Source: Actinomycetota bacterium (GTDB taxonomy: Bacteria > Actinomycetota > Acidimicrobiia > Acidimicrobiales > Acidimicrobilacustridaceae). From it: a stretch of DNA of 35,392 nt. Under the pieces are notes generated by a model, which was given only the letters and a program-made list of their open reading frames with translations, was not told the origin of the DNA and ran no database searches. The DNA is taken from contig WLFD01000007.1 of the NCBI GenBank assembly GCA_009703925.1, forward strand, positions 1 through 35,392. The letters run 5' to 3'. Made by a program: the position numbers and the translations under genes. Positions 335 through 1,975 of the stretch are shown here, in pieces; the stretch's first letter is position 1, and each line of letters begins with the position of its first letter.

Positions 335-1411
335 TCAGACGTTGAACCGGAACTCCATCACATCGCCATCCTCGGCGACATAGTCCTTGCCCTCGACGCG
401 CAGGATGCCGGCATCGCGTGCCTTCGACCAGGAGCCGACCTCGAGAAGGTCGTCCCACCGGATCACCTCGGCACGGATGAACCCGCGCTCGAAATCCGAA
501 TGAATCACACCGGCGCACTGAGGTGCCCGGTAGCCCGCCCGGAAAGTCCATGCACGCGTTTCCTTCTCGCCGGTCGTGAAGTACGTGCGCAGTCCGAGCA
601 TCCGGTAGGCCGTGTTGAGGAAGCGGGGCAGTGCACCCTCGCCGAGACCGAGTCCTTCGAGCATCTCGACCCGTTCATCTGCGTCGAGCTGTGCCGCCTC
701 GGCTTCGAGTTGGACACACATCCCGACGACTTCACCGAAACCGCCGAGTTCCTCGACCACGGGCGCTGCGAGTTCATCGATGCGATCGAGATCGTTTTCG
801 CCGACGTTCACGATGGCGAGAACAGGCTTGTTGGTGAGCAGGAAATAGCTCCGGATCAACCCACGCGTTTCCTCGTCGAGGTCGCTGCGGTAGATGGGCG
901 TTCCCGCGGCGAGAACGTCGTACGCCTTTCCGAGCGCCTCGACTTCATCGGCGATCGAACGGTCCTGCTTCGCCGCTTTGCGGCGCTTCTCTATCTGATT
1001 CTCGACAGTTTCGAGATCGGCGAGCGCCAACTCGATCTCCACGATCCGGAGATGATCGAGCGGATCCGACGGGCCCGGAACATCGTGATCCTCGAAGGCA
1101 CGCAGGACGAAGACGATGGCGTCGGCTTCGCGGATGTTGGCCAGGAACTTGTTCCCGAGCCCTTCCCCGGTGCTGGCCCCCTCGACGAGACCGCCGATGT
1201 CGACGAACTGGACGCTGGCCGGGATGACGGTCTTGGTGCCGCTCATGATCGCAAGCTTCTCGAGGCGATCGTCGGGAACTCTCGCCATACCGACGTTCGG
1301 CTCCTTCGTGGCGAAGGCATAGGGCGCAGCAAGGGCGCTCCCGCCCGACAGGGCGTTGTACAACGATGACTTGCCCGCATTGGGGAGACCGACGAATCCG
1401 AACCGTTCCAT
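335..1411 (-). CDS. ychF: Redox-regulated ATPase YchF (Obg-like P-loop NTPase)
   Basis: [24 protein letters not shown] (P-loop), [31 protein letters not shown]-terminal TGS-like region [31 protein letters not shown]. Confidence 0.97.
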
Positions 1412-1420
1412 GGGTTGGGC

Positions 1421-1426
1421 AGGCTA
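1421..1426 (-). promoter_or_regulatory. Putative -10 (TAGCCT), 9 nt before ychF ATG
   Basis: TANNNT at leaderless spacing. Confidence 0.45.
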
Positions 1427-1506: not shown

Positions 1507-1512
1507 TACCCT
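1507..1512 (+). promoter_or_regulatory. Putative -10 (TACCCT), 9 nt before bL37-like ATG
   Basis: TANNNT; no SD before the ATG. Confidence 0.45.
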
Positions 1513-1521
1513 TGCACCCCT

Positions 1522-1608
1522 ATGTCAAAGAAGACCGATAAGCGCAAGACCAACGCACGCCGCAAGCCCGCCAATCACGGCACCAAGCCGAACGCCGGCC
1601 GGGGCTAG
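1522..1608 (+). CDS. Candidate mini ribosomal protein bL37 (28 aa)
   Basis: ATG...TAG encodes [28 protein letters not shown]: very basic, with an ANHG-x-x-PNA tail resembling actinobacterial bL37. Too short for the ORF track. Confidence 0.7.
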
Positions 1609-1624: not shown

Positions 1625-1975
1625 GTGCCCAGCAAGCCTTCGAAAGAACTCATCACCGTCCCGAACCCCCAACCGGGTCGGGACTACGAGATTCTCTTTG
1701 AAACCGATGAACTCACCTGCTTCTGCCCGGTCACGGGACAGCCGGACTTTGCCACGGTTCGCATCACGTATGTGGCCGACGAGCTTCTCGTCGAACTCAA
1801 GAGTCTCAAGATGTACCTCTGGAGTTTCCGCGACGAGGGCGCGTTCCACGAAGCGATCACCAACGAGATCCTCGACGAACTCCTCCAGGTGACGAAGCCG
1901 CGTCGAATGACCGTGCAGACCATCTGGAAGGTCCGCGGCGGAATCGCCGCGACCATCACCGCTTCGTTCCCCTGA
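1625..1975 (+). CDS. queF: NADPH-dependent preQ0 reductase QueF
   Basis: GTG start; [59 protein letters not shown] matches the QueF core ([22 protein letters not shown]). Confidence 0.93.

Follow-up and report, generated by a model that had tools for sequence, protein, structure and literature searches.

A 28-codon gene between ychF and queF in an acidimicrobial genome very probably encodes an overlooked ortholog of the ribosomal protein bL37

Background

In solved ribosomes, the large-subunit protein bL37 lies beneath the tip of the 5S rRNA, near the peptidyl transferase centre, in a pocket formed by H39, H40, H72, and H89 (PMC5876184, PMC10085706), and its exact function is not established (PMC6133939). 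The protein has been described as actinobacterial or mycobacterial, and as Actinobacteria-specific (PMC5876184, PMC10618245). Other occupants of this cleft have been reported: in Borrelia, the N-terminal helix of uL30 fills the bL37 pocket (PMC10618245), but as an extension of uL30 itself, and the Coxiella peptide CLaSP lies in the same cleft but is reported to be unrelated in sequence.

The bL37 of M. smegmatis and M. tuberculosis (PDB 5o60, 5xym, 7kgb; NF047428) shares with the peptide described here a length of 24-28 aa, a basic N-terminal half, and an ANHGxxPN core, and is likewise encoded by a stand-alone gene of Actinomycetota. In this comparison, our protein alone has a GRG tail and an additional residue ahead of ANHG. 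The mycobacterial-type loci examined often have GGAGG-like sites upstream and carry neither ychF nor queF within about 5 kb, whereas our gene adjoins both and is leaderless by sequence. The bL37 of C. acnes (PDB 8crx; chain 8crx_V of the solved ribosome) aligns with our peptide over 22 residues ending ANHGkrPNA, but lacks the GR(G) tail, and the pairwise E-value is only 0.033. Under the same name, NCBIfam NF047429 describes a Planctomycetes bL37 by a longer model of 32 positions; through its KKANHG core it matches Chloroflexota peptides weakly and locally, but it has no match to the peptide studied here.

A conserved 28-codon gene

The window, that is, the whole stretch of 35,392 nucleotides analyzed in this study, contains the following genes at the locus:

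1522 to 1608, forward strand: bL37 gene, 28 aa, with an ATG start at 1522 and a TAG stop at 1606-1608
1625 to 1975, forward strand: queF (NADPH-dependent 7-cyano-7-deazaguanine reductase family; PF14489 QueF, 101 bits), with a GTG start 16 nt after the bL37 stop
335 to 1411, reverse strand: ychF, the divergent neighbour (PF06071 YchF-GTPase_C, 126 bits), 110 nt from the bL37 start

The position and translation of the ORF agree with the preliminary description of this DNA, as does its divergence from ychF. A search of the source genome (an assembly of 2.53 Mb that is 93.7% complete) gave the ORF as the single match, and no better-scoring bL37 was found elsewhere in it. The peptide is conserved in relatives, with homologs in 54 of 61 genomes searched (E 0.0042 or better), all of which were extracted and inspected as ORFs of 26-29 aa. 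The seven genomes without a credible bL37 match include five that are at least 90% complete.

Within the genus, pS against the window gene was 0.1-0.63 and pN 0-0.10 per site; the ORF is under purifying selection. Across 22 diverse homologs, M, S, K3, K7, A17-G20, P23, N24, G26, and R27 were invariant. The start at 1522 is supported by an in-frame stop about 4 codons upstream in many relatives, which leaves a 32-codon open frame for a 28-codon gene. Further frames through the region are likewise open in this genome, as is common at high GC, and this could speak for a chance ORF in GC-rich DNA or a piece of a longer queF reading frame (1415-1975). However, that explanation retains almost no probability, given the selection acting on this frame, the near-invariant residues kept over 29 families or more, and a promoter spacing fixed relative to the ATG at 1522. 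The 28-residue ORF is a real conserved gene.

Identity as bL37

Database matches alone make a weak case for bL37. In addition to the C. acnes chain, the window peptide matched the NCBIfam model NF047428 with 19.6 bits (E=7.6e-4; 17.4 bits in the genome search), failing the curated cut-off of 30 bits for this equivalog, and family and structure searches with the peptide returned no match other than bL37. Being short and basic, the peptide gives weak pairwise E-values. Against an actinomycete bL37 profile it scored 20.7 bits, compared with 19.6 bits for the best of about 20,000 shuffles of its own sequence.

Three further tests strengthen the case. The Acidimicrobiia profile matched the actinomycete bL37 profile end to end over 27 columns (hhalign, 98.5% probability, E 3e-15). 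Additionally, a profile built from Acidimicrobiia only, with no actinomycete sequence, retrieved mycobacterial-type bL37 from whole genomes; one of these, MAKRGRKKRDRKHSKANHGKRPNA, matches over its full length the bL37 chains of solved M. smegmatis ribosomes (5o60 and others). In a sample of the phylum, the gene was present in 28 of 30 genomes of the class, and six of the 30 reached the curated cut-off, including G050 (32.3 bits) and G272 (37.8 bits). Both belong to other families of the class, and in both the bL37 gene is divergent from ychF, as in the window. The window peptide itself aligns over its full length, with the ANHGxxPN core and the basic N-terminal half, and its gene is single-copy and widespread in the clade. 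The GRG tail and the additional residue before ANHG were counted against the assignment. Some actinomycete bL37 proteins already carry a GR(G) tail (MAKKARKRRNRRKNKANHGKRPNAGRG; L177, L178, L181), so the tail is probably ancestral. One bL37 of this set, from a large genome, ends ANHGRRPA.

On the strength of the profile comparison, the relatives above the cut-off, and the retrieval of mycobacterial-type bL37, the identity as bL37 is firm. The ORF very probably encodes the Acidimicrobiia ortholog of bL37, an orthology that is read from profile comparison and from intermediates above the cut-off. The preliminary description had recognized this resemblance, and its assignment holds with the qualification that the window peptide itself lies below the NF047428 cut-off. 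For the divergent Acidimicrobiia, this cut-off tells how near a peptide stands to mycobacteria, not whether it belongs to the family. With this gene, a known family gains a member from a clade in which annotation misses the gene.

Unrelated occupants of the cleft are already known, and an independent peptide could have come to lie there by convergence, as argued for Coxiella CLaSP. With an end-to-end profile match and graded intermediates leading up to curated bL37, such an origin is highly improbable here. The reading as a basic secreted or antimicrobial peptide has an equally slight chance of being correct: synthetic C. acnes bL37 did inhibit Gram-positive bacteria in disk assays (PMC10085706), but our peptide shows no signal peptide apparent by eye, occurs in almost all members of a class, and has relatives built into ribosomes as structural components. 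The antimicrobial effect belongs to this same protein as a secondary property and does not amount to a competing identity.

Predicted place in the ribosome

By homology with bL37 of the known structures, the acidimicrobial protein may be expected to bind the ribosome in the same pocket. If the structures from M. smegmatis and C. acnes are a guide, its basic N-terminal half would form a short helix in the rRNA pocket under the 5S rRNA tip, which 23S H39, H40, H72, and H89 line; the loop at the C-terminus, bearing the ANHGxxPN core, would complete the fit. In this position, bL37 might stabilize the region behind the peptidyl transferase centre.

The uL30 of the same genome is of the short bacterial form; with 68 aa, it has no Borrelia-like extension that could fill the bL37 pocket. 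The rRNA helices of the pocket are conserved whether bL37 is there or not. Of the two extra proteins of mycobacterial and C. acnes ribosomes (PMC10085706), the second, bS22, is encoded in the genome as well:

L033, 1498 to 1599, reverse strand: bS22, 33 aa, scoring above the COX24_C family cut-off, in the genome of the window

Promoter and leaderless start

Two promoter-like elements lie between the divergent start codons:

1507 to 1512, forward strand: -10-like box TACCCT (TANNNT), 9 nt before the bL37 ATG
1421 to 1426, reverse strand: -10-like box TAGCCT, 9 nt before the ychF ATG, conserved in the genus

A TANNNT motif about 12 nt before the start, without a Shine-Dalgarno sequence, is the signature of leaderless genes in Actinobacteria (PMC3160421). 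The bL37 gene carries this signature: no Shine-Dalgarno sequence lies between the TACCCT box and the ATG in the window, and in 53 of 54 homologs a TANNNT box ends 5-11 nt ahead of the start codon, the distance being exactly 9 nt in 37. In composition-preserving shuffles, this spacing turned up in 1.8 of 54 on average and in 9 at most. The spacing was also found in 33 of 34 homologs outside the genus, so recent shared ancestry does not account for it. It is conserved through the order. Shine-Dalgarno motifs were almost absent among the homologs. Together with the TANNNT spacing, this makes leaderless expression of bL37, as the preliminary description had suggested, well supported at the sequence level, and translation would begin at or very near the 5' end of the mRNA. 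In several sister genera, an upstream PHP-domain gene ends in a TAG stop codon whose TA is at the same time that of TANNNT, a partial confounder there; in the window's genus the site is intergenic. A scan with the sigma-70 consensus found no promoter at the locus, as it demands a -35 box, which these promoters lack. The ychF gene looks leaderless as well, so that the two would form a divergent pair of such genes.

Neighbouring genes

The order ychF(-)/bL37/queF holds throughout the genus, where queF follows bL37 by 6-40 nt in 20 of 20 members with a match (counted from alignment starts). Among 14 other genomes of the family, queF was directly next in four and followed a prolyl-oligopeptidase-like gene in nine, and in one the contig ended too early. 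Of 20 genomes from other families, none had a queF within the roughly 3 kb examined around bL37, and 14 have a divergent upstream ychF. These results indicate that the ychF neighbourhood is older and kept across the order, and that the queF neighbourhood is a family-level trait. The gene order noted in the preliminary description therefore stands for the genus, whereas it is often interrupted in sister genera.

Several of these sister-genus loci (L102, L103, L104, L107, L109, L110) have the prolyl-oligopeptidase-like gene between bL37 and queF and the PHP-domain gene between ychF and bL37, and the TAG stop of the latter is apparently part of the bL37 -10 box. In addition, two GenBank records titled Bifidobacterium breve (L034, L043) carry this acidimicrobial locus, with QueF identities of 99% and 82%; these titles look wrong.

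No terminator-like or -10-like site was identified between bL37 and queF, and where the genes are adjacent they are probably on one transcript, that of bL37 running on into queF. The 16-nt spacing and the co-transcription suggested in the preliminary description are thus retained as found and as probable, respectively. A functional unit of the ribosomal protein with the tRNA-modification gene was considered and downgraded after the synteny survey: the coupling is weak and not supported, because the adjacency is confined to the genus or family and often interrupted in sister genera. An Rfam search found no known RNA regulatory family near the locus, and so no preQ1-type switch of queF.

The constant position just ahead of queF in all 20 of these genus members would also suit an attenuator-like leader peptide that regulates queF and is no ribosomal protein. 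But the peptide shows the same degree of conservation at loci with queF 2 kb off or not nearby, and it matches bL37 of solved ribosomes; with neither an Rfam family nearby nor a terminator-like site between the genes, a role as leader peptide is very unlikely, and bL37 is the reading followed here.

Occurrence beyond Actinomycetota

Meant as a negative control, a first search covered 121 genomes from the phylum to which G350 (titled Anaerolineaceae) belongs; it yielded convincing small bL37-like ORFs. A second search, centred on G475 (independently titled Anaerolineae) and sharing the same genomes, matched 26 of 400 genomes with E-values no higher than 1.4e-4; these values are partly circular, as seven of its genomes had supplied profile sequences. 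Groups newly found in the second search, such as a 29-aa peptide and MVTNRKKQKHKLRWRSKKANHGKRPTHGRK, are free of that circularity. All 26 matches are ORFs of 26-35 aa with ANHGxxP (e.g., MASTRRRKLKKLRMKKANHGKRPLAGK and MSKGQRKQKTTGKLGWRSKKANHGRKPGMGRGKRN). The phylum name Chloroflexota is taken from the GenBank titles of the two records. One of these genomes, G482, lies above the mycobacterial cut-off (32.7 bits), and the actinomycete and Chloroflexota peptides matched with 97.7% in profile comparison. In a Myxococcota-titled phylum, used as a substitute control, one weak match without the motif was found in 193 genomes (E 0.008).

The bL37-like ORFs lie at loci L197-L231 (e.g., L203, L205, L207, L208, L202, L204, L206, L222, L228, L230). 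At L202, L204, and L206, a 34-35 aa form occurs near lepA, at L202 clearly between hrcA and hemW-lepA.

NCBI already has a model for bL37 of Planctomycetes. In a literature search, no paper connected bL37 to Acidimicrobiia, Planctomycetes, or Chloroflexi, although limited journal coverage makes this a weak test. Taken together, it seems likely that bL37 is not Actinobacteria-specific but older or more mobile, patchily common to Actinomycetota and Chloroflexota (and Planctomycetes according to the NCBI model), and mostly overlooked as genes of 24-35 codons below model cut-offs.

Implications

In this uncultured actinobacterium, bL37 goes uncalled because the standard annotation model is set too strictly. 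With the present assignment, a near-universal ribosomal protein is added to the class Acidimicrobiia, where this model passes only six of 30 sampled genomes, and a ready sequence profile is provided for the reannotation of bL37. Among ribosomal protein genes, bL37 would be a clear-cut leaderless case, given its conserved promoter spacing. The likely extension of its range beyond Actinomycetota is the part that a ribosome specialist might not expect, and it is relevant to the frequency with which small proteins of rRNA pockets arise, disappear, or give way to others, as with the uL30 extension of Borrelia and CLaSP of Coxiella.
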